Positions 18,887-45,917 of a DNA stretch of 64,000 bases are shown in pieces. The translations under genes were made by a program, and so were the position numbers. Each line of letters begins with the position of its first letter. Positions within the stretch are counted from its first letter, which is position 1. This stretch comes from Streptomyces sp. NBC_01314 (lineage in GTDB: Bacteria > Actinomycetota > Actinomycetes > Streptomycetales > Streptomycetaceae): contig NZ_CP108394.1 of NCBI RefSeq assembly GCF_041435215.1, positions 2,418,001 through 2,482,000 on the forward strand. Reading direction: 5' to 3'. The notes under the pieces were generated by a model, which was not told where the DNA came from, did not search any database, and saw only the letters and a program-made list of their open reading frames with translations.

Positions 18887-19156
18887 ATGCGCTGGGACCA
18901 TCTGGCCGAGAACCCCGCCACGGCCCGGGACGCCGCGCTGTTCGGCGCGGACATGGTGACGAGCCGCACCTTCGACACTCCCGAGTTCCGCGGCATGACC
19001 TTCCACGAGGTCCGGGCGAGAACGATCGTGAACCGGGTGCCGGGAGCCTCCCGGATGCCGTTCGAGTGGACGGTGAATCCCTACCGGGGCTGCTCGCACG
19101 CGTGCGAGTGCCGGGCAGAAGATGCGCAACGGGTCGGCGCGGCCGACCACCCGTAA
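18887..19156 (+). pseudogene. Rv2578c-type radical SAM protein, 5' fragment (split by integrative element)
   Basis: The first 73 codons of a radical SAM enzyme, up to NPYRGCSHAC, which holds the first two cysteines of the CX3CX2C [4Fe-4S] motif. The frame then runs into element DNA at the core CGTGCG (19101-19106) and ends 16 foreign codons later. The missing part starts at 32120 with VYCFARKTH. Joining 18887-19106 to 32120-32943 gives exactly 348 codons with no frameshift. ATG 18887 has GAGGAGG upstream, and a LexA-type box precedes it. The family is related to spore-photoproduct-lyase-like proteins, and its exact reaction is unknown. In this state the enzyme should be inactive. Confidence 0.93.
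19101..19106. repeat. Left attachment core (attL), CGTGCG
   Basis: CGTGCG here is repeated at 32114-32119 and marks the element's left junction. Left of it lies radical SAM coding sequence; right of it coding similarity stops. The central TG (19103-19104) is the likely crossover dinucleotide of the serine integrase. Confidence 0.85.
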
Positions 19157-19163
19157 CCGCAGG

Positions 19164-20135
19164 TCAGCGGGCTGCTTCCGCCCTGGCCAGCGCGTCGCGG
19201 TGTTCCTGAGTCCAGTGTGCGGCGGCCAGCTCGGACGGCAGTCCCGACAGCCCTGCGGTGATGTGGTCGGCCGCGTCGGCGTAGCGGGCCAGCCCCAGGT
19301 TCGCCAGACCCATGTTCAGGCGGTTGAACTCGGGCGTCAGCCAGTAGGCCGTCTCGGGTGGCGGCACCGCTGACGCTGCGTCCATCAGTCCTTCAGCGGC
19401 GCCCACAAGCCGTATCGCGTCGTCCTGCTGCCCCAGCTCTGCCAGGCCAGCGGCTGCCTGAAGCATGTCCCCGAGACGCTGCGCCGGGTGCGCACCAGGT
19501 GTGTACGCCGCTGCTGCGTACCAGCGGGCCACGCCCTGCGGTCTGCCTTGCTGCCGCGCCAGGTAGCCACGGAAGTTGAGCGCCTGGGCGGCCAGGGTGC
19601 CGTTCCCCACTTCGTCGGCAAGGTCAACGGCTTCGTTCAGCAGCCGGACGGCCGCCGCGTCCTGTCGGTCCTGGGCGAGCAGCCACCCGCCGAACTGGAC
19701 GAACTCTGAAGTGACTTCGGCCAGCCGGTCGCGGTGGGGGCCACGGGCGCCTTTGAGCAGGTGGGTGACCTCTTTCATCTGCGCCAGGGTCGCCGGAAGG
19801 ACCGACCGTGGCTGTACCGAGTCGTCCAGCCGTCTGTACGCGGCCAGGACGCCCGCCAGCGCGTCCACGGTCCCCGCGTCCAGCCTGCTGGGGTTCGCCG
19901 CGCTGCGCGCCGCTCGTGCACTCTCGTCGGCGTCCAGGACGGTTGCGGCCAGAGCCCCGCCGGTCGACAGCAACTCGTCCAGCCGTCTGGCCAGCGCCGC
20001 GCTGGGCCGCTGCTTCGAGTTGAGAACGCGTGACAGGTACCCAGGATCAACGGGTATCGCCTTCGCGGCGGCGGTGGCTGTGTAGCCAGCGTCACGAAGC
20101 GCGCGGCGTGCGACGTCGGCGAAGGTGTCACTCAT
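19164..20135 (-). CDS. XRE helix-turn-helix regulator with TPR-like C-terminal region
   Basis: DNA-binding regulator of 323 residues. The N-terminal HTH is GYTATAAAKAIPVDPGYLSRVLNSKQRPS (residues about 17-45). The remainder is alpha-helical with TPR-like pairs (AAVRLLNEAVDLADEVGNG, ALNFRGYLARQQGRPQG, AEGLMDAASA). ATG at 20135 has GAAGGGG upstream. It is the leftmost gene of the element. In the circular form it would stand 103 nt upstream of the integrase gene on the same strand, so read-through could feed int expression. Host SOS-driven transcription from the split gene would be antisense to it. Confidence 0.85.
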   Translation of the reverse strand: MSDTFADVARRALRDAGYTATAAAKAIPVDPGYLSRVLNSKQRPSAALARRLDELLSTGGALAATVLDADESARAARSAANPSRLDAGTVDALAGVLAAYRRLDDSVQPRSVLPATLAQMKEVTHLLKGARGPHRDRLAEVTSEFVQFGGWLLAQDRQDAAAVRLLNEAVDLADEVGNGTLAAQALNFRGYLARQQGRPQGVARWYAAAAYTPGAHPAQRLGDMLQAAAGLAELGQQDDAIRLVGAAEGLMDAASAVPPPETAYWLTPEFNRLNMGLANLGLARYADAADHITAGLSGLPSELAAAHWTQEHRDALARAEAAR

Positions 20136-20234
20136 GGGCACCCCTTCACGCGGGGGTTGACTGATGTTGCAACCCGTATCCGGCAAGGATAGTCAACTGG
20201 TGTGTGACCAGGCAGTGACTTGACCCTGGACGGC

Positions 20235-20411
20235 ATGGCGAAGCAGCAGGCTGACGAAGCCCAGACCCTGATGACCCTGCGGGTGTCACGCGACGGCGGA
20301 CAGACGTGGACTGACCGGACGGTGGTCCGCAGCACGGAACCCCTGATGCCTGACCTGTCATCACAGTGGCCGCCGTGCCGGTGCCCGAAGTGCCGCCAGC
20401 GGCGCGGGTAG
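20235..20411 (+). CDS. Small protein with C-terminal CxCPKC motif
   Basis: 58 residues, rightward: LRVSRDGGQTWTDRTVV, then WPPCRCPKCRQRRG. The PPCRCPKC end recurs, as far as I recall, in short hypothetical proteins of Streptomyces and its phages, and could bind a metal. It is followed at once by a strong bidirectional terminator, which supports a real transcript. Function unknown. Confidence 0.6.
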   Translation: MAKQQADEAQTLMTLRVSRDGGQTWTDRTVVRSTEPLMPDLSSQWPPCRCPKCRQRRG

Positions 20412-20421
20412 GGTGACATGC

Positions 20422-20458
20422 AGAACGGCCGCCCCCACTTCGGATAGGGGCGGCCGTT
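20422..20458. terminator. Bidirectional terminator hairpin
   Basis: GAACGGCCGCCCC (20422-20434) pairs perfectly with GGGGCGGCCGTTC (20446-20458) around an 11-nt loop, between the convergent small protein gene and the membrane-protein gene. Confidence 0.85.
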
Positions 20459-20480
20459 CGTCGTGCGGTGCGGCTGCGGG

Positions 20481-21584
20481 TCAGGCTGCCGTCTGGCCGC
20501 CCTGCTCGGCGGCCAGGTTCAGGTACCGCTTCGCCGTCTTCGCGGACACCTTCCAGCGCGCCACGATGGCGTCCACGTCCAGCCCTTCGGACCGGACAGC
20601 CGCGATGCGTCCGTCCGTCCGCGCGGCACGCGCCGCGTTGGCCTGTCCCAGCGCGTTTCCGCTGGACAAGCCGACTGCCACCGGCCTGTCCAGCGGCCTG
20701 TCCACGTCTACCCGGACCGTGGCCGTCAGCCGCTTCGGACCGCTGGCCGCGACCGCCTTCGTGTCGTCCTGGCCGACCGGAAGGGCGGGCCGGACCGGGG
20801 ACACCGGACCGAGCACCGGAAGGGCCAGCTTCGGCAGGACCGCGTCACCGGCCAGCCAGTCGCGGAACTGGTCCGCGTGGGTACCGTGCGTCTGCTGCGC
20901 CTGGTCGACCTTTCCCCACAGTCCGGCCGCCTGCTCGTCGCTCTTGATGCGCTCTGCGACCACCAGGGCAGCAAGGGCACGCTGGTGCCGCTCATTGTCG
21001 GCGTGCGCGGCCAGCTCGGCTTCCGCCCGCCGGTCGCGCTCGGCGCTCGTCAGACTCATGTCCGCGTTGTGCACGGCCAGTGCGTCGCGCTCGGTGTCGA
21101 AGCGCTGCGCGATGCTGACCGCCGTGGACCGGCTGGCGTAGAACGCGTCCATCAGGACCGTGGCCGCCCGGACCGCGAAGGCCACGGCGGGCAGATAGGA
21201 CAGCGCGGGCAGGTGGCCTACCTTGACCAGCATCACGACACTGGCGGCCGTGGCACCGGCGGCCAGTGCGCCAGCGATGCCTGCCCGGACGTACTGCCGT
21301 GCCTTCAGCGCCGTGTCCGCCTGCTGCGTGAAGCCCAGCCAGAGCAGATCGAACAGGACCGCGATACCGGCGCCCGCGATGAACCCCGTCTTCCCTTCCA
21401 GGCCAACCATGTGGCCGAAGCGCTGCGCCAGACCGCCGATCACCACGCACAGCGTCACGGTGGTGGCCGCGTGGCTGACGACGTGCACCGGCTTGCTGGC
21501 GACGTACGCGGCCACGCCGCGCGCCCGGTCCCGGGCGGTCGGCTTCGGCTGCTCGTCCGTCCTGCTCGTCTCGTTCGTGCTCAT
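20481..21584 (-). CDS. Element membrane protein with C-terminal HTH-like segment
   Basis: 367 residues. Four hydrophobic helices lie within residues about 38-145 (TVTLCVVIGGLAQRFG, TGFIAGAGIAVLFDLLWLGF, AGIAGALAAGATAASVVMLV, LPAVAFAVRAATVLMDAFY). A charged coiled-coil-like stretch follows (LTSAERDRRAEAELAAHADN), then a linker, and a terminal HTH-like block DAIVARWKVSAKTAKRYLNLA. The arrangement loosely recalls Spd/DUF2637-type plasmid membrane proteins of actinomycetes, but I do not recognise a specific family. ATG 21584 has GGAAGGCG upstream. Its promoter overlaps that of the divergent AlpA-like gene. Confidence 0.75.
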   Translation of the reverse strand: MSTNETSRTDEQPKPTARDRARGVAAYVASKPVHVVSHAATTVTLCVVIGGLAQRFGHMVGLEGKTGFIAGAGIAVLFDLLWLGFTQQADTALKARQYVRAGIAGALAAGATAASVVMLVKVGHLPALSYLPAVAFAVRAATVLMDAFYASRSTAVSIAQRFDTERDALAVHNADMSLTSAERDRRAEAELAAHADNERHQRALAALVVAERIKSDEQAAGLWGKVDQAQQTHGTHADQFRDWLAGDAVLPKLALPVLGPVSPVRPALPVGQDDTKAVAASGPKRLTATVRVDVDRPLDRPVAVGLSSGNALGQANAARAARTDGRIAAVRSEGLDVDAIVARWKVSAKTAKRYLNLAAEQGGQTAA

Positions 21585-21603
21585 GGTCAGTCGCCTTCCG
21601 TTG

Positions 21604-21674
21604 TTGTCGTTCTGACAACGACAAAGCTATACCGGGATGATGCAGTTGTCAAAGCGACTTCTTCCAGCTACTGT
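21604..21674. promoter_or_regulatory. Overlapping divergent promoters with a perfect operator palindrome
   Basis: Rightward: -35 TTGTCA (21646-21651), 17-bp spacer, -10 TACTGT (21669-21674), placing the start of transcription at about the ATG at 21682, so the AlpA-like mRNA would be leaderless. Leftward: -35 TTGACA is the complement of the same bases, then 17 bp, then -10 TAGCTT. Just downstream of the leftward -10 lies TTGTCGTT-CTGAC-AACGACAA (21604-21624), a perfect 8-bp inverted repeat, and another TTGTC half-site lies inside the shared -35. This looks like a two-way genetic switch. Confidence 0.7.
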
Positions 21675-21681
21675 GATGCTC

Positions 21682-21909
21682 ATGAGCGACGACGCGAAGA
21701 ACACGAAGCAGCAGGTCAGGCCGGAAATCTGGGACACGGCGGCCGTCGGCCGCTTCCTGGGCGTCGCGGCGAAGACGGTCCGGGACTACGCGACCAGGGG
21801 CGACATCCCGAAGCCTGACGGCCACCTGGGACGGACGCCGTACTGGTTCGCGGACACGATCCGGGAACACGAGCGTCCGGGACGCGGGCGCAGCAAGCCG
21901 AAGGACTGA
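21682..21909 (+). CDS. AlpA/MerR-type helix-turn-helix protein (putative excisionase/activator)
   Basis: 75 residues: IWDTAAVGRFLGVAAKTVRDYATRGDIPKPDG (winged HTH of the excisionase/AlpA type), followed by GRTPYWFADTIREHERPGRG, the usual second wing with the W-x-x-x-x-I pattern. Such proteins direct excision or activate satellite and prophage genes. The ATG at 21682 appears to be the first transcribed codon. The -35 hexamer is shared with the divergent membrane-protein gene. Confidence 0.8.
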   Translation: MSDDAKNTKQQVRPEIWDTAAVGRFLGVAAKTVRDYATRGDIPKPDGHLGRTPYWFADTIREHERPGRGRSKPKD

Positions 21910-21977
21910 CCAGTCCAGAGCAGCAGCACGAAGGACCCGCTACCGGCTGCCGGTGGCGGGTCCTTCGTCGTTGGCGC

Positions 21978-22169
21978 CTACGGCCGCGCCGCGTCGCCCG
22001 TCCGCCCGTCCAGCACGGTGCGCAGCAGCGCGGGCACCGTGACGCCACGCTGCGCAGCCAGTTCCCTCAAACGATCACGTTCGGACCGGCGCATCACCAC
22101 GCCAACCAGGTCATCAGGACCGGGCAACCGCTTCGCGTAGGCCGACACGTTCCCGCCGCGCGCCGACAT
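21978..22169 (-). CDS. Ribbon-helix-helix-like small DNA-binding protein
   Basis: 63 residues. PDDLVGVVMRRSERDRLRELAAQRGVTVPALLRTVLDG fits an Arc/CopG-type strand followed by two helices. ATG 22169 shares one base with the stop of the preceding gene (TGATG), so translation is coupled. It might repress its own operon or act in plasmid-like partition or mobilisation; this is inference. Confidence 0.65.
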   Translation of the reverse strand: MSARGGNVSAYAKRLPGPDDLVGVVMRRSERDRLRELAAQRGVTVPALLRTVLDGRTGDAARP

Positions 22170-22588
22170 CAGCGTGTTCCCACACGACGCGGACCGGACC
22201 ACAGCGGCTGACCGGGGCGCAGCTTCGGCCTGGCGGTCGCCGTCGCCGTCCATGTCCCGCCGTCACGCTGCCAGTTGCTCACAGCCCAGCCTTCACGGGC
22301 CAGCTCGAAGACCAGCGCGCGTGTGTCGAAGACAGCGCCGTCCGTCCGGGTGGCGAAGACGTCCCGGCCGTGGCTGCCGGTCACCGCGACCGCGTACCCG
22401 TCGCCGTCCTGCGTGGCCGTGGCCCGGTAGACGCGCGCGGCGGGGACTGCTTCGCCCAGCGCCAGGACGGCCGCCTGGACGAACGCAGCCGCGTCCCCGA
22501 CGTCCTGGCCGCTGTCGCGCTGGAAGGCCGCCAGGCGGGCGCGCAGCCCTTCCAGGTCGCTGGTCAGTTGCTGTGCTTCGGTGCCCAT
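22169..22588 (-). CDS. Hypothetical element protein
   Basis: 139 residues, no family recognised. The N-terminal half is helical (AQQLTSDLEGLRARLAAFQR, DAAAFVQAAVLALGEAVPAA); the C-terminal half is beta-rich (RVYRATATQDGDGYAVAVTG, GGTWTATATARPKLRPGQPL). ATG 22588 has GAGGAA upstream; a GTG at 22618 overlapping the previous stop as GTGA is an alternative. It is part of the leftward cluster 21978-23781. Confidence 0.6.
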   Translation of the reverse strand: MGTEAQQLTSDLEGLRARLAAFQRDSGQDVGDAAAFVQAAVLALGEAVPAARVYRATATQDGDGYAVAVTGSHGRDVFATRTDGAVFDTRALVFELAREGWAVSNWQRDGGTWTATATARPKLRPGQPLWSGPRRVGTR

Positions 22589-22614
22589 GCCGGGGTTCCT
22601 CACGTCGTCGGGGT

Positions 22615-23031
22615 TCACAGAGACTTTGACCAGCGGTCCGCGCGGATGCTGGCCAGCGGGTCGGGACGCTCGGGCGCAGGGTCTGGCGCAGCGGCGGCTG
22701 TAGGCGCCACCGGCGGCCGTGGCGCGGCTGGGACCGGCTGGGGCTGCTCGTCGGCGGGCGGGTCGTCCGGCTGCTCGGGGACCGGGGTGCAGCACTCAGT
22801 GACACCGACGATGCAGCCCAGGCAGACACCGACCACAGACAGCGCCGTCCCGCCGCGCATCACCATCGTGCCGGTCACCGTGCCGTCCGGCTGCTCGTTC
22901 CGGTACGTCTTCACCGTGGACGTACGGCTGGTGAGCACACCCAGGCCGGACGTGTCCGGCATCGCGGCGCGGGCTGACCGCCGTTGGTCCGCAGCGCGCC
23001 GCACGGCCGCGACGTCAGCGCGACTCACCAT
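22615..23031 (-). CDS. Hypothetical membrane-anchored, proline-rich element protein
   Basis: 138 residues. Basic N-terminus (VAAVRRAADQRRSARAA), one hydrophobic segment at about 60-78 (GGTALSVVGVCLGCIVGVTE) with a CC pair, then a Pro/Ala-rich tail of about 45 residues. Probably a single-pass membrane protein. It overlaps the upstream TerS-like gene by 7 nt. Function unknown. Confidence 0.6.
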   Translation of the reverse strand: MVSRADVAAVRRAADQRRSARAAMPDTSGLGVLTSRTSTVKTYRNEQPDGTVTGTMVMRGGTALSVVGVCLGCIVGVTECCTPVPEQPDDPPADEQPQPVPAAPRPPVAPTAAAAPDPAPERPDPLASIRADRWSKSL

Positions 23032-23591
23032 GACGCGTCTTCGTCCGCACCGGCCAGCTTCCGCTTCAGCTCGTCCAGCTCAGCGGCCAGCGTGACGACG
23101 TCGCGTACCTTCACCATCTGGTCCAGCGTGGCCGTGGCTGCCCGGACTTGCGTGGCGGTGGCGTCACCCTTGCGCCCGAGCGCCAGCGTGGCGACAGCGT
23201 CCAGCCCGTCAGCGACCAGCGCACCGGCCACCGCGTCGTACATCTCGCTGCGAATGGCTTTGATCAGGTCAGCGCATCCTTCCCAGTTAGCGGAAACGCG
23301 CGTCCGGCAAGTCGACTCGGGGAAGCCGTTGTCCTGCGCCGCACCGTGGACCGACCGGCCGCGTGCCACGGCCAGGATGAACGCGTCCCAGCGGTCGGCT
23401 TCAGCAGCCGCCACGACGGCCGCCACACGGTCGCTGGGTGCCTTCGGGGTTCCCTGGCGCCGCGATTCGTCGCGGCTGGCGGCTGCCCCGGACGGCTGCT
23501 CGATGCCGTGCCAACGGCACTCACCGGCCTTCGACTTGCAGGGCGTGCCGTCGCGCTTCTCAGCGCCGCACAGCTCGGACTGGTCAGTCAC
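23025..23591 (-). CDS. Terminase-small-subunit-like protein with N-terminal Cys/His motif
   Basis: 188 residues. An N-terminal ELCGAEKRDGTPCKSKAGEC...H segment could bind zinc. It is followed by an HTH, FILAVARGRSVHGAAQDNGF-PESTCRTRV, and a helical tail (ADGLDAVATLALGRKGDATA, AATATLDQMVKVRDVVTLAA, ELDELKRKL). This architecture resembles phage terminase small subunits: recognition HTH, then paired oligomerisation helices. GTG 23591 overlaps the upstream gene by 8 nt. No large terminase is present. A generic HTH regulator is the alternative. Confidence 0.55.
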   Translation of the reverse strand: MTDQSELCGAEKRDGTPCKSKAGECRWHGIEQPSGAAASRDESRRQGTPKAPSDRVAAVVAAAEADRWDAFILAVARGRSVHGAAQDNGFPESTCRTRVSANWEGCADLIKAIRSEMYDAVAGALVADGLDAVATLALGRKGDATATQVRAATATLDQMVKVRDVVTLAAELDELKRKLAGADEDASW

Positions 23592-23781
23592 AGTCGGTCC
23601 CCGCCTTCCCCGTTCCGTACGACGCCACCAGCCGCGCCGTGTTGGCCTCTTCGGCTTCCAGTTCCCGCACAGCTCGGGCAGCCGCGTCAGGGCTGGCGTA
23701 GTCGGTCTCTGCGGCCACCTGCTTCCACGTGGCACCCGTGGACCGGATCTGACGCGCCCGGTACGCCCGTACCGTCGCCAT
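23584..23781 (-). CDS. Small helix-turn-helix protein
   Basis: 65 residues: RAYRARQIRSTGATWKQVAA-ETDYASPDAAARAVRELE, a compact HTH similar to those found beside phage terminase and recombinase genes. The start at ATG 23781 has weak Shine-Dalgarno support; an in-frame ATG at 23820 lies inside the operator palindrome. First gene of the leftward cluster 21978-23781. Confidence 0.6.
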   Translation of the reverse strand: MATVRAYRARQIRSTGATWKQVAAETDYASPDAAARAVRELEAEEANTARLVASYGTGKAGTDCD

Positions 23782-24280
23782 GACGCACACCGACTTCCTG
23801 TCGAAACTTTGTACCGTCATTTGTACCGCTACAAAGAACAGTACAACGCGGCGGCCGGTCGTCACCGCGTCCGGCTGTCCGCTGACGGCTCGATGCCGAC
23901 GCCAGCCGCGCGGCGGACGATCTTGACGGCGGGACGTTCCTCGCGGGAATTCGCGTGCGCGTGTTGCATCGGCTTTGTACTGCGCGTTGTAGCGCAGCGC
24001 GCGGGCGCGTGCACGCGTACGGATACGGACAGGCCGGACCGGCTGCCGTTGGTCACCGGCTGACTGTTGGCCGGTCCGGTCGGCGGTCCCCCGGCGGCTT
24101 CCAGAGTCAAGTTGCAAGGCTGCCGAACTGTCGCCCTGCGCGGACACGACGAGAGACCCCTTCCACCCTGGGAATGTCAAGAGTTGTGCAGGGGTTATGT
24201 ACATAGGTGCTTCGCACCGTCACGCAAAAGAACGGCATGTGACGGCGAGTGCAAATCGGGAAAGAACGGGCGGGGAAACG
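23782..24280. promoter_or_regulatory. Divergent control region with TTGTAC operator array
   Basis: About 500 bp without a convincing gene, between the leftward HTH/TerS-like cluster and the rightward Phd-like gene. TTTGTACCG occurs at 23808-23816 and again at 23820-23828. TTTGTA-CCGC-TACAAA (23820-23835) is a perfect palindrome, and GTACAA follows at 23841-23846. The 24190s hold TATGTACATA, a further palindrome near the Phd-like gene. One element repressor probably binds here; which one is unknown. Confidence 0.55.
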
Positions 24281-24649
24281 ATGACGAAGAGCATCAGCGT
24301 GGCGGGCCTGCGGGCGCGGCTGGCGGCCGTCCTGGACGCGGTCAGGGATGGCGACACGTACGCGATCACACGGCACGGCACGGCCGTGGCGTTCATCGTC
24401 CCGCCGTCCGTCCTGGCGAAGGTCGAGCGTGCCGACCGGCTGGCCGGACAGCTGGCCGTGGCGGAAGAGCGGCTGTCCGTGGCTGAGGCTGAGAAGCTGG
24501 CCGCGCAGATGACGCTGAACGACACGGTGGTGCGGCTGCGGTCGGCTGAGGCGAAGGCGGGTGAGCTGGCGGAAGAGGTCGACAACCTTCGTGATCTGAC
24601 GGACGGCCGGTCACCGGCTGCGAAGCGTGCGGCTGCTCGTCGCCGCTGA
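24281..24649 (+). CDS. Phd/YefM-type antitoxin-like protein without a toxin partner
   Basis: 122 residues. The N-terminal half, ISVAGLRARLAAVLDAVRDG-DTYAITRHGTAVAFIVPPS, is the Phd/YefM DNA-binding fold. The C-terminal half is a long coiled coil (AERLSVAEAEKLAAQMTLN, LRSAEAKAGELAEEVDNLR) ending in a basic tail. ATG 24281 has CGGGGAAA upstream. It is followed directly by a 21-bp-stem terminator, so no RelE/Doc-type toxin is co-transcribed. It may act as a solo regulator. Confidence 0.72.
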   Translation: MTKSISVAGLRARLAAVLDAVRDGDTYAITRHGTAVAFIVPPSVLAKVERADRLAGQLAVAEERLSVAEAEKLAAQMTLNDTVVRLRSAEAKAGELAEEVDNLRDLTDGRSPAAKRAAARRR

Positions 24650-24676
24650 CCGGCCGACATGTACACGTGTTGTACA

Positions 24677-24722
24677 CAGCAGGAAGGACCCCGGACCGAC
24701 TGGTCCGGGGTCCTTCCTGCTG
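24677..24722. terminator. Very strong bidirectional terminator (21-bp stem, 4-nt loop)
   Basis: Positions 24677-24697 pair without mismatch with 24702-24722; the loop is GACT. The core is GCAGGAAGGACCCCGGACC and its complement. It separates the convergent Phd-like and tyrosine-recombinase genes. Upstream, at 24660-24676, TGTACA-CGTGT-TGTACA repeats a palindromic hexamer twice. Confidence 0.92.
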
Positions 24723-24779
24723 CTCGGTGTGGGCACACGCGGCGGCCGGTCCCACAACCGGCCGCCGCTTCGCGTTGTG

Positions 24780-25979
24780 TCAGGCGTCGTGCTGAACGCG
24801 GTCCGCGCGGTCCAGCCGAAGCTGTGACATCGCTGCCGCGCGGTGGCGGTCCTGACCAGACCGGCCGCCATCACGACGGCCGCGCTTCACGTACTTGCCC
24901 ATGACGTCGGCGCTCTTCCAGTCGCCCAGCGCTTCCATGATCTCTTCAACAGTCATGTCTGTGCTGCGCCCCAGCTCGGTGGGCGCACCGGCCCGAAGGC
25001 CGTGTGCGGTCAGCGTCTTGACGTACGCGGGGTTGCTGGTGCCGTCCGGCAGGAACTCACCGAACAGTCCGGCGCGTTCAGCCGCAGCCTTCACCAGCGC
25101 GTTGACCGTCTGCCGCGTGATGCCGTCGCCCTCACCGGACTTGTCCCGGACGCCCTTGCCGTTGGGGCCCTTCACCAGCTTCCCGCCCGGCTTCCGGAAG
25201 GTGCCGTGGCGAGTGACCGACCGGAAGAACGGCAGTCCTGGCGCGTCGGCTTTCTGTGCTGCCAGGTCCGCCTTCCACGCCTTGACGGCCGCAATGCACG
25301 TCGGGTCGTCAATGTCGTACTCAATACCTTCGTCCTGCTTGTCTGCCTTGCTGGTCCGCTTCGTCACCACCAGCAGTTCGTCACCGTCGTGCAGTTCCAA
25401 GTCACGGTTGCGCAGCGCGGCCAGCTCGGACGCACGAGCGCGGATGAAGAAACCGAGCAGCATCACAGCGCGGTCACGGCGGCCGGTCGGTGTCGACTCG
25501 TCACACGCGGCCAGCAGGACTTCCAGCCGGTCCAGGTGCACCGGCGCCGACGTCTTCGTTTCCCGTCCGGCCTTCGCCCAGGCGTGGCGGTGGTCGGCAA
25601 GGATCGTCTTCGCCGGACGGTCGTCCAGGTCCAGGTTGCCCGCGCGCCTGTTCATCCACTGCACGGCCGCGATGGCGCGGCGGACGCTGGTGGGTGGGGT
25701 GTCCCGCTCGATCAGCGCGGCCACCCACGAAGTCAGGTTGCCTTCCTTCGTCGGGATCGCTGCGGCGCGGCCGTTAGAGACGCACCACTGGGCGAACGAC
25801 GTCCAGACGCTGAAGTACGTGTCCCGCGTGCCGGTCCGGCCGGACTCTTCGAGCATCTTCCTGGCGGCCAGTGTCAGCGTTTCGTTGACGTCCACGGTGT
25901 CCGGCAGACGGCCACTGGTGACTGCGGGCAGGTTGCCAGCTTCGCCCACGATCTCAGCTTCCATGATCTCTGCGTCCAT
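24780..25979 (-). CDS. Tyrosine recombinase (phage integrase family)
   Basis: 399 residues with a SAM-like N-terminal domain (RTGTRDTYFSVWTSFAQWCV) and a complete catalytic domain: Arg in GFFIRARASELAALRNRDLE, His-x-x-Arg in LTAHGLRAGAPTELG, His/Trp position in LGDWKSADVMGKYVKRG with the Tyr nucleophile in GKYV. ATG 25979 has AAGGGGAAG upstream. It lies mid-element, away from both junctions, so it probably does not perform the integration reaction. Dimer resolution of a replicating circle or a second site-specific event are possible roles. Confidence 0.88.
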   Translation of the reverse strand: MDAEIMEAEIVGEAGNLPAVTSGRLPDTVDVNETLTLAARKMLEESGRTGTRDTYFSVWTSFAQWCVSNGRAAAIPTKEGNLTSWVAALIERDTPPTSVRRAIAAVQWMNRRAGNLDLDDRPAKTILADHRHAWAKAGRETKTSAPVHLDRLEVLLAACDESTPTGRRDRAVMLLGFFIRARASELAALRNRDLELHDGDELLVVTKRTSKADKQDEGIEYDIDDPTCIAAVKAWKADLAAQKADAPGLPFFRSVTRHGTFRKPGGKLVKGPNGKGVRDKSGEGDGITRQTVNALVKAAAERAGLFGEFLPDGTSNPAYVKTLTAHGLRAGAPTELGRSTDMTVEEIMEALGDWKSADVMGKYVKRGRRDGGRSGQDRHRAAAMSQLRLDRADRVQHDA

Positions 25980-26023
25980 GATGCTTCCCCTTAACCCGCC
26001 CGGCTGCTCTTCGTCTTCGACCA

Positions 26024-26057
26024 TCCTAACTTACCCGAAGCACGGGTCAGGTAAGTT
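26024..26057 (-). promoter_or_regulatory. Promoter/operator of the tyrosine recombinase
   Basis: On the minus strand CTGACC, 16 bp, then TAGGAT forms a plausible promoter 45 bp upstream of the ATG. AACTTACC (26028-26035) and GGTAAGTT (26050-26057) form a perfect inverted repeat straddling it. A further ACTTACCCG lies at about 26135-26143, and TTTGGTATACCAAA (26115-26128) is a 14-bp perfect palindrome between them. Nothing coding is seen in 25980-26258. Confidence 0.55.
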
Positions 26058-26258
26058 GGACTGCTTGGTCAGTTCGGCGCAAGCCTCTGACCTGCGATGA
26101 TGCAATGTTGCAGCTTTGGTATACCAAACACCGTGACTTACCCGTTACGTCACGATCTGTGCCTGTTAAGCACCCAATGTGACGGATGCCAGACGACGAA
26201 GCACCCGCGACCGGCGGCCGGTCGCGGGTGCTCTGGTGGTGCCACTCACTACGTGCGG

Positions 26259-26468
26259 TCAGGAAGCGAACGGGTCCGGCGGGAAGGCCGCTTCCCAGCG
26301 CTCACGGTGGACCCAGGCCGGTCCGGTCCGCTCGTACCCGACACGTCGGCAGACCTCACCGGCCGCCGCGCCGCAACGGTCGCAGTCGGCCAGCGCCGTG
26401 GCTGGGTTCACGCGCCGACGCCCCCGCCGACGAGCAGCAGGGGCGCGGCCGGTGCGGCTGGCGGTCAC
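26259..26468 (-). CDS. Small zinc-finger-like protein
   Basis: 69 residues. A basic N-terminus (AARRRGRRRVNPA) is followed by CDRCGAAAGEVCRRVGYE and WVHRERW. This is the CxxCGAxxGxxC...H pattern of short actinobacterial and phage zinc-binding proteins. GTG 26468 overlaps the stop of the preceding Cys-rich gene as GTGA. Function unknown. Confidence 0.65.
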   Translation of the reverse strand: MTASRTGRAPAARRRGRRRVNPATALADCDRCGAAAGEVCRRVGYERTGPAWVHRERWEAAFPPDPFAS

Positions 26469-26866
26469 AGGATGGCTTCAGGGTCGGCAGCCGTCGCCTG
26501 GCTGGCCGCGTCGCGCAGCATCTCAGGAAGATGTCCACCACACGCGTACTCGGGTGTCAGCCGGTCGAAGCTGACGGCCATGACGGCTGGACGTCCGCAA
26601 GGACGTTCGCACGGGCCACCGTCCGCCCGGACACCCGACATGCAGGCCGTGCACTCACGGTCGGTGTTGCCGGTGCCCAGCCGCTTGAAGCGGTACGTCC
26701 CGACACCCTGGCCGTCCGCGTACGGCTGCTCGTCCGTCCAGCCGTCATGGCCCAGGCTCATGCCACCGACCGGCAGGCGCATCAGGTCGCGGACCGCCGC
26801 GTCCGCCTGGTCCGCGTGCGCCAGCTCAGCGGCCGTCAGGCTGTTGGTGGGGTCGAAGCTGCTCAT
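26465..26866 (-). CDS. Cys-rich hypothetical element protein
   Basis: 133 residues. Helical N-terminus (LTAAELAHADQADAAVRDLM), then six cysteines in ECTACMSGVRADGGPCERPC and EYACGGHLPEM, suggesting a metal site. ATG 26866 has GAGAGGAA upstream. It is coupled to the downstream zinc-finger gene. No family recognised. Confidence 0.65.
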   Translation of the reverse strand: MSSFDPTNSLTAAELAHADQADAAVRDLMRLPVGGMSLGHDGWTDEQPYADGQGVGTYRFKRLGTGNTDRECTACMSGVRADGGPCERPCGRPAVMAVSFDRLTPEYACGGHLPEMLRDAASQATAADPEAIL

Positions 26867-26930
26867 GATCAGTTCCTCTCGGGGTGTGATCGGGGCGGCC
26901 GGTGGTCGGCCGCCCCGTCTGCGTGGTGGG

Positions 26931-29321
26931 TCAGATGTCGTAGTCGAGCCCGAGTGCTGCGGTCGCCCACGGGTCGTTCGTGCTGAAGGGGTCGGCGTCC
27001 GCCTGCGCGCCGTTCAGGGACTCAGCGACCGCAGGGACCGCAGGGACCGGGCAGGGTGTGGCGGGTGCGTCAGCGGGCTGCTGCGGCTGCTCGGGCTGCT
27101 CGGGCTGCTCGTCGTCCGGCGCGGCCCAGCCGACGCCCCTCACCAGCTGCGCCCGGATACGAAGGCTGGTGTACGAAGGGACCTGCTTACCGTCCACGCG
27201 GGGCTTCGCCGACTCGATGCCGTTGCCGGTCGCGTACAGAGCCGCCGCGAACTGCGGGCCGGACATCGGGTGATCGATCTTCACCGACGTGCACCAGTCA
27301 GCGAAGGCGCCCATGACGTCGGTCTTCGGCGTGGTGGCGCCCGGAACGATCTCACACCACTCGTCAAGGAAGACGGACACCGGGGCGGACGCGACCTTCG
27401 TCATGTCCCGTACGGCCGTGGCCGACTTCGGCACCGTGAAGCGCCCGCCATTGCGGTTCAGCCGGTCGAGCCCTTCCAGTGCCCACAGGATGATGCCGTC
27501 CAGCTCACTGGTGACCAGCCGTTCCTTCAGGCCGAAGTCCTCACGACCGATGAACGACTTCGTGAAGGTGAGCAGCAGCGTCCGGCCTTCCAGTGCGGAC
27601 GACTCGTCAGGCAGTGACAGCGGGTTGTTCGTAGCGATGGCCAGCAGCCAGCCGGGGTGACCGTTCACCGGCTTCTCATACTTCCGGTTGATCTGGATAT
27701 CGTCGGTGGACGCCAGGGTCAGCAGGCGTTCCAGGACGAAGCTGTTGTCACCCTTGCCCAGCCGCGCGTCCCCGACGGTCACGAGCCGCTTTCCGATCGT
27801 CGTCTGAAGCCCGAAGTCCGTCGTGAAGTCACGCATGTTCAGGCCCTTCGCGTTGGCTTCACCGATCAGATGCGCCATGACGTGCAGGATCGTGCCCTTA
27901 CCGGACCGGCGGGGGCCCAGCATCAACAGGAACTTTTCCAGGTTGATCCGGCCGGACAGCAGGTACCCGAACCACTCTTGCAACAGCGCGATGGCGTCGG
28001 CGTCGTCGGCCCAGAGCTGGTCCAGGAACGTCAGCCACTCGACTGGCTTCGCCGCGCCCGCGTTGAAGTCGTACGGGACACACACCTGGCTGAACCACAG
28101 TGGCGTGTGGTCCAGGACCGTCCGGCCGCCGTTGACGTCCACCAGCCCGTTGCGGAAGGCCATGACCGGCTTGCCACCGGCGCGGCCGTCCAGCCACACG
28201 TTGCTGACCACGTCGGCGCCGATCTCGAAGGACACGTTCGTCAGTGCCTGAAGGGCACGCACCACATGGCTGACGCTGTTGGTGTTGGGGTTCCACGACG
28301 GGCAGACCGGCCGCCCCTGCTCGTCGTAGACCGGCTGGCCGTTCTTCGTCTTTAGGTAGTGGCTGTCAGCCAGCGCCAGGTGCACCAGGTCATGCACTTC
28401 GCTGGGCGTGCGCTCGACCCACTTCGTGCCGGTGTACTGATGCCAGACACCGTCCCGGCTGACCAGCGTGGCGTTCCCGTCCGCGTCCAGGTGGTCCGCC
28501 TGAAGGGTCACGGCAACTTCGTGAGTGAAGCCGGGCGCCGGAACCAGCCGCACGTCCTTGCACACCGGCGCCAGGCCGACGATGTCCCGGTACGCCTTCG
28601 CGGTGACGGTACCTTCCTTGTCCACGTCCACGGCGCCTTCCAGCGCGGTCGACATCAGGTCCGCCAGCAGTGCGGGACGGTCGCTGGCGGCCATCCGGCC
28701 CAGAATGTCGTCCAGCCCGTCCTTGTCGTTGCCCAGGCCGTCCAGGTCCACGAAGCCAGCACGAGCGGCACCCGCGTCCAGCAGGCCGGTGTGGATGGCC
28801 AGACCGCCGTTCCAGACGTCAGCGTTGACGCACAGATCGGCGTCCAACACCGTAGCGATGCTCAGCCCGTGCGCCCAGGACCAGTCCTGGTCAATCTTCG
28901 GGTTGCAGCCAGCAAGGACGTACACGCCGATGTGGTCCGGCAGTGCCTGAAGTGCGGCCAGGCCCTTCAGGTGCCCTTCGGCCAGCAGCGCCCGCCCGCC
29001 GGGCTGAACAGCGCGCAGCACCCAGACGCCGTACGGGTCGCCCTTGCGGAACACGTACTTCATGGGGCGGCCGTCTGCGCCCGCCTTCGGCTTGTCGGGG
29101 CGGTACTGGAACTCAATGGCGCCGTCCGTCAGCACGCGGACGAACAGCATTCCGGGGCTGGCGTACTGACGGCGCATCGGTTCGGGAAGGTCACCGCGCT
29201 TCGTGACCGGCCGGACGTGGTCGGCCGCCACGGCTTCGTTGTGCTCGATTCCGCGCACCGTCAGCGCGTCAATCGAAGCCTGGGAAAGGCTCGTGCCGGT
29301 AGGATCGGAAGCGGAATTCAT
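26931..29321 (-). CDS. DUF3854 (Toprim-like) / SF3 helicase primase-helicase
   Basis: Replication protein of 796 residues. The N-terminal part carries ALLAEGHLKGLAALQALPDH and VYVLAGCNPKIDQDWS, matching DUF3854, a Toprim-related domain of plasmid and phage primases. The C-terminal part is a phage/plasmid D5/P4-type SF3 helicase: Walker A MLGPRRSGKGTILHVM, Walker B region KRLVTVGDARLGKG, and motif C/sensor region LLAIATNNPLSLPDESSALE. The extreme C-terminus is a Pro/Gln-rich tail with PEQPEQPQQP. ATG 29321 has GGAAG upstream. The iteron array at 29867-30173 is its probable target. P4-type proteins open their own origin, which fits the layout. Confidence 0.9.
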   Translation of the reverse strand: MNSASDPTGTSLSQASIDALTVRGIEHNEAVAADHVRPVTKRGDLPEPMRRQYASPGMLFVRVLTDGAIEFQYRPDKPKAGADGRPMKYVFRKGDPYGVWVLRAVQPGGRALLAEGHLKGLAALQALPDHIGVYVLAGCNPKIDQDWSWAHGLSIATVLDADLCVNADVWNGGLAIHTGLLDAGAARAGFVDLDGLGNDKDGLDDILGRMAASDRPALLADLMSTALEGAVDVDKEGTVTAKAYRDIVGLAPVCKDVRLVPAPGFTHEVAVTLQADHLDADGNATLVSRDGVWHQYTGTKWVERTPSEVHDLVHLALADSHYLKTKNGQPVYDEQGRPVCPSWNPNTNSVSHVVRALQALTNVSFEIGADVVSNVWLDGRAGGKPVMAFRNGLVDVNGGRTVLDHTPLWFSQVCVPYDFNAGAAKPVEWLTFLDQLWADDADAIALLQEWFGYLLSGRINLEKFLLMLGPRRSGKGTILHVMAHLIGEANAKGLNMRDFTTDFGLQTTIGKRLVTVGDARLGKGDNSFVLERLLTLASTDDIQINRKYEKPVNGHPGWLLAIATNNPLSLPDESSALEGRTLLLTFTKSFIGREDFGLKERLVTSELDGIILWALEGLDRLNRNGGRFTVPKSATAVRDMTKVASAPVSVFLDEWCEIVPGATTPKTDVMGAFADWCTSVKIDHPMSGPQFAAALYATGNGIESAKPRVDGKQVPSYTSLRIRAQLVRGVGWAAPDDEQPEQPEQPQQPADAPATPCPVPAVPAVAESLNGAQADADPFSTNDPWATAALGLDYDI

Positions 29322-29436
29322 CGCAGGACTTCCATTCAAAGGTTCATGAGAAGCCCGGCCTAGCACCAGCGGCATTCAGGGTGTGGTGACCCTGTATGGT
29401 GTTGCTTGGCCCAGCTTCTTAGCGGTTGCAGGGCGT

Positions 29437-29481
29437 GAAGGTCCGGTGCTCAGTTGGGAAGCTGAGGCGCACCGGGCCTTC
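29437..29481. terminator. Terminator between the small XRE gene and the primase-helicase gene
   Basis: GAAGGTCCGGTGC (29437-29449) pairs with GCACCGGGCCTTC (29469-29481) with one T-G wobble; CTCAG/CTGAG extends inward. It follows the minus-strand XRE gene and isolates it from the primase-helicase gene. Confidence 0.75.
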
Positions 29482-29491
29482 GTTGTTTCCG

Positions 29492-29698
29492 TCAGGCAGG
29501 AATCAGCTGGCTGGTGTCGATGACGTCCGCGACGTCGTCCAGGCCGACGGTGCGCAGATACGTGGCCAGCTTCCGCTGAGACAGGTTGGCCTGGCCGCGC
29601 TCGACCAGCGACAGCATGGAACGGGTGCATCCGACGGCCGTGGCCACCTGGGACAGGCTGAGTCCGGCGGCCAGGCGTGCGGCGCGAAGACGAGTCAT
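29492..29698 (-). CDS. Small XRE-family repressor-like protein
   Basis: 68 residues, essentially one HTH_3 domain: LRAARLAAGLSLSQVATAVG-CTRSMLSLVERGQANLSQRKL. ATG 29698 has AAGGGAAA upstream. It lies between the origin array and the primase-helicase gene, where it could repress replication. TGTTGA-N7-TCAACA (29745-29763) in its leader is a candidate autoregulatory operator. Confidence 0.82.
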   Translation of the reverse strand: MTRLRAARLAAGLSLSQVATAVGCTRSMLSLVERGQANLSQRKLATYLRTVGLDDVADVIDTSQLIPA

Positions 29699-29744
29699 GA
29701 TCGTTTCCCTTCGGGTGGTGTCCGCCAGCCCGGTTTCCCCGTGC

Positions 29745-29763
29745 TGTTGAGGACTATTCAACA
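29745..29763. promoter_or_regulatory. Inverted repeat upstream of the small XRE gene
   Basis: TGTTGA and TCAACA are separated by 7 bp, 47 bp upstream of the XRE ATG; suitable as a dimer site for the 68-residue repressor. Further upstream a CTAGATCTAG palindrome stands at about 29840. Confidence 0.45.
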
Positions 29764-29866
29764 CCCTTGCCAGCAGCTGCACTTGTACAGAAACCGCTGG
29801 TCAGAGCCATTTTCCTAGGGGCGCCGGGGGCGGAAGCACTAGATCTAGCGCGTGGCCTGTCCAGGT

Positions 29867-30173
29867 GATCCGGGTCAGATCCGGGTGGTGATCCGGGTGA
29901 TCCGGGTGGTGATCCGGGTCAGATCCGGGTACCCGGATCACTGTTTCCGCAGGTCACACCCCCTGTGATCCGGGTGATCCGGGTGATCCGGGGGGATCGG
30001 GATTCCTTCTACACATGTACGGCAGGACTGGCACCCCAACTGAAAAACTCTTTCGCGTTATCCATTTCCCCCCGGATCACCCGGATCACCTGGATCACAG
30101 CACGTCTGACCTGGGCTTTTAGTGATCCGGGTGGTGTGCGTCCACCCGGATCACCACCCGGATCACCCGGATC
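29867..30173. other. Candidate replication origin: 14 perfect GATCCGGGT iterons around an AT-rich core
   Basis: GATCCGGGT occurs forward at 29867, 29878, 29890, 29899, 29911, 29922, 29967, 29976 and 30124, and reversed (ACCCGGATC) at 29931, 30079, 30144, 30156 and 30165. One-mismatch copies are at 29985, 30070 and 30088. Spacing is mostly 9-12 bp, about one helical turn. Copies at 29922 and 29931 abut as an 18-bp palindrome. Between the left and right clusters, about 30041-30068 is unusually A+T-rich for this genome (GAAAAACTCTTTCGCGTTAT). It lies next to the primase-helicase gene, as expected of a P4-type origin. Confidence 0.8.
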
Positions 30174-30296
30174 ACCCCTAAACGATCTTCCAGCCCAGCC
30201 GGTCGGCCGCCGCTTCGCCCCGGACAACACGAAGCCCTGTACGGCCGCCTGACGTTCTGCCAGCCGGTCCCCGGTGCGCGGGTGTCCAGACACGCG

Positions 30297-30329
30297 GAAC
30301 GGCCGTCAGCAGCCCGCTGACGGCCGTTC
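30297..30329 (-). terminator. Terminator of the serine integrase gene
   Basis: GAACGGCCGTCAGC (30297-30310) pairs perfectly with GCTGACGGCCGTTC (30316-30329) across a 5-nt loop, 17 nt beyond the integrase stop. The interval 30174-30296 holds no recognisable gene. Confidence 0.85.
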
Positions 30330-30345
30330 GCGGTGCTGCTCGTCC

Positions 30346-32073
30346 CTACGCCAGAGCGGCCCGTACAGCCTGCTTCGTCTCGCCGTCCAGCTCGGGCGCA
30401 CCGGCCGCGATACGGCGCACCGCAGCAGTCACAGCCGACTGCGGGTCCAGGTCGTACGTGAACCCCAGGTCCCAGTCCGCCTTCCACTGCTGGGTCATGG
30501 CCGCCGCGTCGGCGGGGACGACCACCCGCCCGCCGCGCTTCACCTGGACCGGGAAGCCGCCGGACCGCAGCGTGTCCGCCAGGTCCCTGGCGACCGCCGG
30601 TGCGCCCAGGTCGAGTGTGACTGTCTCGCCCGGAACGGCTGGCTTCGGCCGTCCGCCCTTCAGCACCACCGCGACGCTGGACGGCTGGAACCCCAGGGTC
30701 TTCGGCAGTCCAGCGGCGGACAGCAGGGTGACCGACTCGAACAGCGACGTGATCACAGACCTGAAGCGGTCGAGCGGAAGCGCGTTGACGGCCGCCTGGA
30801 CATCGTCTGTGTCCACCACGCCGACGAGCGCGCTGGACTGCTGGGCGCCTTCCAGAACGGCTTCAGCGGCCCGCTGACGGACGTTCACGGCGCGCCTGGC
30901 GTCCCGGTAGGCCACGACGTCGTCAGCGTCGTCAGAGTCCGCGTACGCGTCCGCCAGGGCGTCCAGCTTCCGGCGGCACCGCGCCACTTCGTCGCGGGCA
31001 CTCTGGACCGCCGGGTCTTCGCCGTCGTCCGCCAGCAGTTCGTCCCGGTCACGGTCCACCACAGCCGCCACCAGCGCACGCATGTACTCGTCAATGGGCG
31101 TGGCCGCCCTGGCCAGATGCTTGACCGGTCCGGCGCACCGGTAGACGGCCACGGGCCCCGCGTCGCCCTTCCCGCCACGTGACCCCGACGTCACCAGGTG
31201 CGCGCAGCCGTCCATGCCGCACCGGCCGATGGACGACAGCGCCCAGCGGGAAGCCGGACCGGGCGACGTACGGCGCCCCTCGTCGCCCAGCAGCGCCCGC
31301 GCGGCCCTCACGGTGTCTTCGTCCACGATGCGCGGCCAGACGCCCGGCCAGACCTTCCCGTCCGCGTCCTCACGGACGGCCGCATACCGCAGGTTGGCCA
31401 GCAGGTGACGGCACGTCCCCGCGCTGTGAGGCTTCCCGCCACGCGTCAGCAGGCCGGTGGCGTTCAGCTGACGCGCGATACCGGTCAGGGACGAACCCGC
31501 CAGCAGTGACGCGAACGCTGCGCGTACCGCGTCAGCTTCGGCTTCCACCAGTTCCAGGCTGTCGGCGGTGTACCCGAAGACGCGTGCGGAACCTGCGGGC
31601 AACCCGAGTTCGAGCCGTCTGCGCAGCGCGCGGCGGGTGCGCTCACTCTGGGCTTCCACTTCATGCGCCGCGACTTCGGCCAGCACACCGGCCACCAGGC
31701 GCCCGCTGGCGCTGGCCAGGTCCACGTCCACGCCGCGCAGCACCAGCAGGCTGACGCTGTGGCGGGCCAGCGCTTCGTACACGTCCACACGTTCGCGGCG
31801 GCTTCGCGTCAGCCGGTCCGTGTTGCGCACCAGGATGTGGCTGATCTCGCCCCGGTTGACGGCCGCCATCATCGCGTTGAAGTCCGGCCGCGTCTTGCTG
31901 GTCCGGCCCGGCAGTTCGGCCGCGCTGATGTCGCTGTCCCGGTAGATGTGCGCCAGCTTCAGTCCGCGCGACGTCGCCAGGGCTTCCACGTCTTCGACCT
32001 GCGTTGTGATGCTGTCGTCTTCGCGGCTGCGGGACAGTCGCACGTACCCAACTGCTCTTCTCTGCTGCGTCAT
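30346..32073 (-). CDS. Large serine recombinase (integrase)
   Basis: 575 residues. Resolvase catalytic domain about 6-150 with the nucleophile in GYVRLSRSREDD (Ser14), plus ILVRNTDRLTRSRRERVDVY. The recombinase DNA-binding domain is at about 160-270 (RVFGYTADSLELVEAEADAV, IARQLNATGLLTRGGKPHS). A zinc ribbon with GRCGMDGCAHLV...VYRCAGPVKH lies near 290-325, and a coiled coil near 360-430, as in phiC31-type integrases. ATG 32073 (TQQRRAVGYVRLS) lies 41 bp from the right core. It probably catalyses attP x attB at the TG core. No good promoter or ribosome site is visible between the ATG and the junction. Confidence 0.93.
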   Translation of the reverse strand: MTQQRRAVGYVRLSRSREDDSITTQVEDVEALATSRGLKLAHIYRDSDISAAELPGRTSKTRPDFNAMMAAVNRGEISHILVRNTDRLTRSRRERVDVYEALARHSVSLLVLRGVDVDLASASGRLVAGVLAEVAAHEVEAQSERTRRALRRRLELGLPAGSARVFGYTADSLELVEAEADAVRAAFASLLAGSSLTGIARQLNATGLLTRGGKPHSAGTCRHLLANLRYAAVREDADGKVWPGVWPRIVDEDTVRAARALLGDEGRRTSPGPASRWALSSIGRCGMDGCAHLVTSGSRGGKGDAGPVAVYRCAGPVKHLARAATPIDEYMRALVAAVVDRDRDELLADDGEDPAVQSARDEVARCRRKLDALADAYADSDDADDVVAYRDARRAVNVRQRAAEAVLEGAQQSSALVGVVDTDDVQAAVNALPLDRFRSVITSLFESVTLLSAAGLPKTLGFQPSSVAVVLKGGRPKPAVPGETVTLDLGAPAVARDLADTLRSGGFPVQVKRGGRVVVPADAAAMTQQWKADWDLGFTYDLDPQSAVTAAVRRIAAGAPELDGETKQAVRAALA

Positions 32074-32113
32074 TGCAGCATGATGACAGATTGCGCGTCT
32101 TCGCGTGGGGACT

Positions 32114-32119
32114 CGTGCG
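32114..32119. repeat. Right attachment core (attR), CGTGCG
   Basis: Second copy of the 6-bp core. Joining the inner flanks gives attP as GGGGACTCG-TG-CGAGTGCC, with ACTCG/CGAGT arms symmetric about TG. Joining the outer flanks gives attB inside the codons for CSHACVYC. Confidence 0.85.
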
Positions 32120-44068: not shown

Positions 44069-44073
44069 GCGCA

Positions 44074-44643: not shown

Positions 44644-44645
44644 CC

Positions 44646-45851: not shown

Positions 45852-45884
45852 TCAAGGGCTGATCGAGGGTCGGTTGCCTGTTCA

Positions 45885-45917
45885 GGGGTGTTTTCTTCGA
45901 GAAGAAGATCACACCCC
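45885..45917 (+). terminator. Terminator of the ccr operon
   Basis: GGGGTGT (45885-45891) and ACACCCC (45911-45917) enclose an inner TTCTTC/GAAGAA pair, giving a two-part hairpin 34 nt after the mcd stop. Confidence 0.75.

Follow-up and report, generated by a model that had tools for sequence, protein, structure and literature searches.

The genome of Streptomyces sp. NBC_01314 (NCBI RefSeq assembly GCF_041435215.1; 11.3 Mb in two contigs) was analysed in a window of 64,000 nucleotides (contig NZ_CP108394.1, positions 2,418,001 to 2,482,000; G000:C1:2418001-2482000 in our numbering), which contains an element of 13,013 bp (window positions 19107-32119) inserted within a radical-SAM gene. The element is probably a helper-dependent integrative replicon, whose helper would be either a phage or a conjugative element. 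Carriage by a phage helper, in the manner of a satellite, is our tentative preference and is slightly more likely than conjugative carriage. All coordinates given below refer to the window.

Insertion into a radical-SAM gene

The G+C content of the element (68.8%) was compared with that of its left (72.3%) and right (70.9%) flanks. The 5' half of the host gene (18887..19106, + strand) is split after NPYRGCSHAC and the 3' half (32120..32943, + strand) resumes at VYCFARKTHSY, the break falling between these two stretches. The core CGTGCG is present at both junctions (attL, 19101..19106; attR, 32114..32119), as determined from the sequence repeat and from comparison with the empty site. The joined empty site (107 nt) gave a single junction-spanning match in 70 of 99 other genomes; in the own genome, this query matched only as two halves (1-47 and 39-107). 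The insertion is therefore real, and the exact limits that an earlier note on this DNA had drawn from the repeat and the split gene were borne out. Judging by these junctions, the serine integrase put the element into the Cys-motif codons of the radical-SAM gene, which was split as a result. We take the host gene to belong to an Rv2578c-like family.

The large serine integrase (protein O, 30346..32073, − strand) matched PF00239 (2e-23), PF07508 (7e-9) and a PHROG integrase family (8e-75), in agreement with the previous placement of such an enzyme at one end of the element. Its best relatives were found in genomes G148 (42%), G142 (38%) and G145 (42% over a fragment). In G142 (L105), the integrase directly precedes VYCFARKTHSY and both host halves are present, the 3' half at 76%. 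In G148 (L104) and G145 (L156), the integrase has the host 5' half and the same neighbour gene close by, and the 3' half was absent from the stretches fetched for these two loci. All three islands at the radical-SAM locus carry related serine integrases and other cargo; the site is therefore owned by the integrase group and not by this element, and the group points to a conserved Streptomyces gene as a landing site. At the right junction, an open reading frame (ORF; 32080-32943) begins with an in-frame ATG inside the element DNA and continues into the host 3' half, gaining a new Cys upstream. Its ATG, at 32080, and the start codon of the integrase gene, which lies on the opposite strand, are six bases apart.

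Primase-helicase and iteron array

Protein L (26931..29321, − strand) is a P4-family primase-helicase, with a TIGR01613 match of 112.6 bits (cut-off 108.7) and a PF19263 (DUF5906) match of 1.5e-12; the earlier description of this gene as an SF3 primase-helicase was thus confirmed. It consists of an N-terminal TOPRIM-like domain (assigned by eye), a D5_N match just under the cut-off and the DUF5906 helicase domain. Among the fetched loci, the N-terminal domain was nearest to those of two Streptomyces cyaneochromogenes elements (37% and 32%). The helicase domain was 38-42% identical to those of Streptomyces integrative elements, namely loci of actinomycete integrative and conjugative elements (AICEs), 23-30% identical to those of viral contigs and only 26% identical to that of one S. 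cyaneochromogenes element (L099). Protein L thus looks like a domain chimera as far as its sequence goes. No close relative of protein L or of protein G (described below) was found in the searched genomes. Scans of viral contigs with proteins L, J, G and B, and of genome contigs with L alone, returned nothing informative.

Upstream of the primase-helicase gene lies an iteron array of TGATCCGGG units (29865..30176), a putative replication origin, in which two inverted clusters surround an A+T-richer spacer (30004-30067). Sixteen copies of GATCCGGG were counted within 300 bp, versus four at most for any 8-mer in ten codon-shuffled controls, which upholds the reported presence of iterons adjoining the primase. 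The 17-mer GATCCGGGTGATCCGGG occurs five times in the genome, always within the array (reversed control, 0). Arrays of at least seven copies were also present at or just past the primase end in four relatives without a recognised TraB (L106, L107, L108 and L036). In one S. cyaneochromogenes element (L100), TGATGGGGG units are likewise arranged in inverted clusters, with eight core copies; the likeness of the TGATCCGGG and TGATGGGGG types, two 9-mers with two mismatched positions, is suggestive only. In picocyanobacteria of the genus Synechococcus (L182 and L184), a primase with the same N-terminal architecture stands beside integrase-like and helix-turn-helix (HTH) genes, as judged by eye.

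Relatives of the helicase domain

Loci were fetched for 23 of 29 non-self matches (20 of AICE type and L106-L108), leaving out G008, G136, G291, G087, G002 and G320. Of the 54 loci offered for the helicase tree, 46 were used, as L100, L150, L152, L153, L154, L182, L206 and L208 gave no helicase match. One clade of 20 loci was recovered with a support of 100/99 or 100/100 in all three trees. A tyrosine integrase is encoded by all 20 of its members and a Prim-Pol gene by 19. An initial tblastn search for FtsK detected 12 positive loci in the clade; an iterated profile raised the number to 19, the remaining locus being interrupted by a contig end. The seeds of this profile (L037, L099, L100, L188, L189 and L190) hit themselves by construction and were judged from other matches or from annotation. 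We take the clade, on gene content, for Prim-Pol-type AICEs.

The window, L106, the pair L107/L108 and a 16.3-kb circular element of Streptomyces virginiae (L036) branched outside the AICE clade, and FtsK/TraB was not found in any of them, where L107 begins at a contig start and may lack its left genes, its twin L108 is uncut and the right limit of L106 is unset. The window branch is long; the clade split is therefore trusted, and the exact basal order is uncertain. The S. virginiae NBC_00125 element (NZ_CP108186.1), filed as a plasmid, encodes a tyrosine integrase, a Prim-Pol, a P4 primase, a DUF2637 protein and WhiB. It also encodes a large-terminase ATPase (PHROG 7579, 1e-45; PF03237 above the cut-off), and a second ORF has weak terminase matches. 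Eight of its 17 genes were scanned and none was recognised as a capsid gene; the element may be an excised satellite. L106 comprises a tyrosine integrase, an XRE regulator, AlpA (HTH_17, 1e-9), a primase and a phage antirepressor. The syntenic loci L107 and L108 (genomes G126 and G027) contain a serine integrase, a Prim-Pol-helicase, GTGCCATAT iterons past the primase and small genes, and lie beside a gene that we presume to be whiG-like. Packaging-type genes and a phage regulator were thus each present in one of the four TraB-less relatives. A recent transfer between L107 and L108 was considered and dismissed, as the element DNA (primase and iterons) was 86.7% identical versus 83-84% for most core flanks and 77% for one stretch, which is no clear signal.

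A 27-kb Pseudonocardia plasmid (L037, NZ_CP053567.1) is the neighbour of the AICEs in the tree. Its annotation lists capsid, terminase, DUF2637 and FtsK genes, which makes it a phage/conjugative hybrid. The S. cyaneochromogenes MK-45 elements L099 and L100 each encode a short TraB-like translocase (FtsK PHROG in both; NF041214, 4e-9, in L100). Repeats of the GGCTCAGC type were observed within a DUF2637-like gene next to the short TraB-like gene in both elements (L099, 12229-12453; L100, 6512-6580) and represent a possible clt. L101 and L234 (G280:C67) mark an element inserted in a gene that we assume to be comM; besides FtsK and a tape-measure-like gene, it carries a serine integrase and a recombinase akin to J (28%).

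Search for virion, packaging and transfer genes

Pfam and PHROGs were searched with the supplied ORFs, NCBIfam with eight window proteins, and a local TraB profile with all six frames. Within the reach of these tools, no match was obtained for capsid, tail, lysis, large terminase subunit (TerL), RepSA or FtsK genes; the best E-value of the TraB profile was 0.095, and an iterated search returned nothing. The reported lack of virion, lysis, TerL, RepSA and FtsK/Tra genes is in line with these results. Neither did sid, psu or delta, the capsid-size and activator genes of P4-like satellites, turn up in the PHROG and Pfam scans, in which no search by name was made.

The terminase-small-subunit-like protein of the earlier note fared less well. 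The protein meant, G (23025..23591, − strand), has a Cys/His N-terminus and an HTH, and matched no profile of the small terminase subunit (TerS) at E<=1. It gave weak matches only, to HGGxSTG (0.0017, below the cut-off) and HTH_23 (0.05), and its single-sequence model was predicted to be mainly helical at a poor pLDDT (predicted local distance difference test) of 54, so G was rejected as a proven TerS. Across 256 genomes, the best non-self match of G had an E-value of 4e-4. The DNA of G and of its neighbour H gave chance-level matches to phages, and the TerS-like protein of the sister elements had one phage match (E 0.05), to an HTH protein.

Regulators, recombinase and protein B

The XRE repressors proposed earlier were recovered as protein M (29492..29698, − strand; 68 aa; HTH_31, 1.8e-10; HTH_3, 1.6e-9) and protein A (19164..20135, − strand), an NsdA-family regulator with XRE and TPR parts (NF053720, 3e-26, and HTH_31, both above the cut-off). 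The proposed AlpA/MerR-like regulator likewise held up as protein C (21682..21909, + strand), a small HTH protein matching PHROG 597 (1.6e-15) and the PHROG 66 excisionase family (4.5e-4); the AlpA match is moderate, with Pfam HTH_17 under the cut-off. Protein C is a possible activator or excision factor. The NsdA identity of A, the tyrosine recombinase J and the Phd/YefM antitoxin I had been overlooked.

Protein J (24780..25979, − strand) matched PF00589 just below the cut-off (8.6e-6) and the PHROG 1 integrase family (1e-10), and the catalytic residues R, K, HxxR, W and Y were located by eye. Over nearly its full length it was 41-43% identical to proteins of seven Streptomyces plasmids including pFP4, which we take to be a plasmid-phage and on which TerS, TerL, portal and capsid genes come after the gene of the J relative (43%). 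Another of the seven is a linear plasmid of 90 kb that also has peptidoglycan-recognition and collagen-like genes. A further relative (44%) is encoded on a 44.9-kb contig of G276 that was read as phage from portal-, capsid- and tape-like ORFs recognised by eye. The simplest role for J would be multimer resolution of an episome. Protein H (23584..23808, − strand), a short HTH protein, belongs to a phage family, PHROG 645 (labelled RNase E; 1e-4), which it has in common with the analogous S. cyaneochromogenes protein (3e-8). Protein I (24281..24649, + strand) is a Phd/YefM-type antitoxin (PF02604, 6e-10; TIGR01552 above the cut-off), and no partner toxin was recognised for it.

Protein B (20481..21584, − strand), a probable membrane protein by eye, matched no Pfam, PHROG or NCBIfam family and belongs to a rare family: relatives of 361-385 aa were found in 3 of 294 other genomes of the genus, with 26-29% identity over the hydrophobic part. 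The relatives in G166 (L243) and G074 (L244) lie in a common gene cluster, in which no FtsK was recognised within 20 kb. The surroundings of the third, in G081 (L242), appear to be of conjugation type and mildly favour a transfer role for B: an FtsK-like ATPase with a Pfam AAA_10 match below the cut-off stands there near an AAA_10/TraG-like gene at the cut-off. Searches of phages and plasmids with B gave nothing informative. B was rejected as a proven DUF2637/Spd protein, as hhalign against a DUF2637-like set gave a probability of 5% and B was not among the best 25 rows of a search with a DUF2637-like profile, rows taken up by shuffles and other window ORFs.

Candidate helpers in the host genome

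The host genome contains an HK97-type prophage, with TerL and capsid genes at 6.43 Mb, as well as AICE-like TraB loci, and the second contig (17.6 kb; L190) has an FtsK-like gene below the Pfam cut-off. The resident prophage was discarded as a demonstrated helper, since its best DNA match to the element was 56 bp at 77% (E 3e-4, from a small database). No convincing DNA was shared between the element and the resident TraB loci or the second contig. The iterons were also discarded as a clt for TraB, given that the motif is unclustered at the resident TraB loci examined and the 17-mer is confined to the element. The clt idea came from GACCCGGA, which we assume to be a clt sequence; a literature search for it listed no paper that contains it.

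Comparison with known systems

According to an excerpt of Ghinet et al. 2011 (PMC3218068), Prim-Pol AICEs share with the element an integrase, an AlpA/xis-like protein, kin of the P4-type helicase, an NsdA-like regulator and size. The element differs from them in that no FtsK/TraB was recognised, the N-terminus of its primase is TOPRIM-like instead of Prim-Pol, its helicase branches outside their clade and its integrase is of the serine type, which the same excerpt gives for 19 of 144 AICEs. For Frankia AICEs, it gives 129-180 aa as the length of the small XRE proteins and 281-441 aa as that of the larger, NsdA-like ones; protein A (324 aa) lies within the latter range, and protein M (68 aa) is below the former. 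With phage-inducible chromosomal islands (PICIs), as outlined in part of PMC6092414, the element has in common an integrase gene, XRE/AlpA regulators, a primase with an iteron array, the absence of virion genes and a length of approximately 13 kb. It differs in its serine integrase and in TerS and cos, which are unconfirmed here; the likeness is one of gene set. MulchRoom and MiniFlayer, the phage satellites of Streptomyces described in an excerpt of PMC10690885, have capsid and packaging genes and no primases, which is the opposite gene set.

Among individual relatives, L099 and L100 (NZ_CP034539.1) share with the element the serine integrase, the NsdA-like regulator and the N-terminal primase domain, and L100 additionally AlpA and iterons. 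They differ in their short TraB-like translocase, and the L099 helicase falls in a phage-side clade (26%). The S. virginiae element resembles ours in having no TraB found, a helicase at 41%, iterons past the primase and an integrase; it differs in the tyrosine type of its integrase, Prim-Pol, the large-terminase gene, DUF2637 and WhiB.

The PICI features present in the element are an integrase with a specific att site, a pri-rep module with a putative iteron origin, AlpA/Stl-type regulators and the lack of virion, lysis and TerL genes; its P4-type primase-helicase, above the TIGR01613 cut-off, is a feature of P4-like satellites. Of the AICE features, the integrase is present, the FtsK/SpoIIIE (TraB) transfer protein was not found, and on the replication side the helicase is akin to those of Prim-Pol AICE loci, with no Prim-Pol in the window. 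An integrase and a replication gene without tra also make up the gene set of a mobilizable or remnant AICE. The functional set of PICIs that had been proposed thus fits a satellite, whereas TerS is unconfirmed and the parts also describe an AICE without a translocase. We file the element neither as a PICI nor as an AICE, because the transfer gene of the latter was not found and the packaging and helper features of the former are unproven.

Possible mechanism and alternative explanations

For the steps following integration (excision, replication and packaging), we infer the following course. An inducing signal would relieve the XRE/NsdA-type repressors, and the integrase, with a directionality factor that might be the AlpA-like protein C, would excise a 13-kb circle and restore the host gene. 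The P4-type primase-helicase would then open and copy the DNA at the inverted iteron clusters, and tyrosine recombinase J would resolve multimers. The Phd protein I could stabilise carriage or act as a regulator. Because no virion or translocase gene was recognised, the circle or a concatemer would leave in the machine of another element, most likely a phage capsid.

A phage helper is our first choice, by a narrow lead: J and H have kin on the phage side, one relative bears a terminase and another an antirepressor, and the size is like that of a satellite. Several observations weigh against it. The regulators and the helicase are AICE-like, the TerS identity of G is unsupported by profiles, and PADLOC detected no defence gene among 10 proteins. 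For all 17 phage records with a DNA match, the best place lay within the primase gene, and no convincing DNA was common to the element and the resident prophage. No phage gene was seen in the viewed stretches of J-kin plasmids (two of the seven and that of one 38% relative). Five-copy iteron clusters also occur by the primase end in 3 of the 20 AICE loci (L218, L223 and L227). Finally, the B relative in G081 adjoins the FtsK-like ATPase (1e-31, local profile); this conjugation-type locus weakened phage carriage, which we had held a little more probable before it was found. A conjugation gene among the unassigned proteins had been named in advance as evidence against a satellite; none was recognised in the window, and such genes were present in relatives (the TraB-like genes of S. 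cyaneochromogenes and the G081 ATPase by the kin of B).

Mobilisation and decay are close rivals to carriage by phage, given the AICE-like nature of the regulators and the helicase and the conjugation-type locus at which one relative of B stands. The main alternative of the earlier note, a plasmid-like island that moves by other means, stays plausible. It is somewhat unlikely, though well worth considering, that the element is an integrative mobilizable element of the AICE lineage, whose circle a resident AICE or plasmid would move with its TraB/FtsK; B would then be a transfer- or spread-type membrane protein. Such an origin would account for the NsdA-like and small XRE regulators, both described for AICEs in the excerpt of PMC3218068, and is consistent with the greater identity of the helicase to AICE loci than to phage-side sequences, the TraB-like translocase of the S. 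cyaneochromogenes relatives, the AICE-like TraB loci of the own genome and the one of three B relatives found beside FtsK-like and AAA_10/TraG-like genes. However, the element shows no further strong repeat cluster as a candidate clt (the one at 24604 is short and GC-rich), the iteron motif was unclustered at the resident TraB loci examined, and B is not demonstrably a DUF2637/Spd protein, its two other relatives having no FtsK recognised within 20 kb. Moreover, recent losses would place the TraB-less relatives within the AICE clade, and they branch outside it. Decay is rather unlikely: the element would then be an AICE-like or plasmid-like island that has lost its transfer genes and merely persists in the chromosome. 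The rarity of B and the lack of close relatives found for L and G agree with a remnant, but the att cores, the iterons and the long open integrase, recombinase and primase frames are all present (small frameshifts would escape notice), and compact elements of like make-up without a recognised TraB occur in other genomes. We regard it as very improbable that the element transmits itself through an unrecognised translocase or an autonomous plasmid-like route; B, E, F and K match no assigned family and leave room for such a protein, yet no Walker-type translocase was recognised and the TraB profile stayed at its best E-value of 0.095.

A broader proposal, which we consider unlikely, is that Streptomyces has a grade of small integrating replicons lacking both TraB and virion genes, to which the element of the window, L106, L107/L108 and L036 would belong; these would be phage satellites, and the Prim-Pol AICEs would have arisen from them by gain of TraB. 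If this were true, a switch from satellite to conjugation would be visible in the tree of a replication protein. If borne by a phage, the element would be an integrating, primase-bearing satellite in Streptomyces; the published ones that we found, MulchRoom and MiniFlayer, both lack primases, and predicted PICIs of Actinomycetota receive a passing mention in print. If moved by TraB, it would be a minimal hitchhiker of conjugation. Either way, the results suggest that such elements slip between the FtsK-based screens for AICEs and the satellite screens built on other phyla. Neither this element nor a TraB-less grade basal to AICEs was described in the titles and abstract openings covered, subscription papers being mostly outside reach.

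Other features of the element and the window

Four further small proteins are encoded on the − strand of the element. Protein D (21978..22160) is ribbon-helix-helix-like (RHH_10, 0.003, below the cut-off), and protein E (22169..22588) had no family at E<=0.01. Protein F (22615..23031) has a possible membrane segment and a weak match to a Zot-like PHROG (0.009), and protein K (26465..26866) is Cys-rich, with no family match. Related hairpins, one perfect and two recognised by eye, occupy the intergenic gaps at 21924-21971, 24677-24722 and 26192-26240; two of them lie between convergent genes, and the three are likely bidirectional terminators. Outside the element, the interval 44001-46000 of the window combines a low G+C content (62-65%) with a run of + strand genes.

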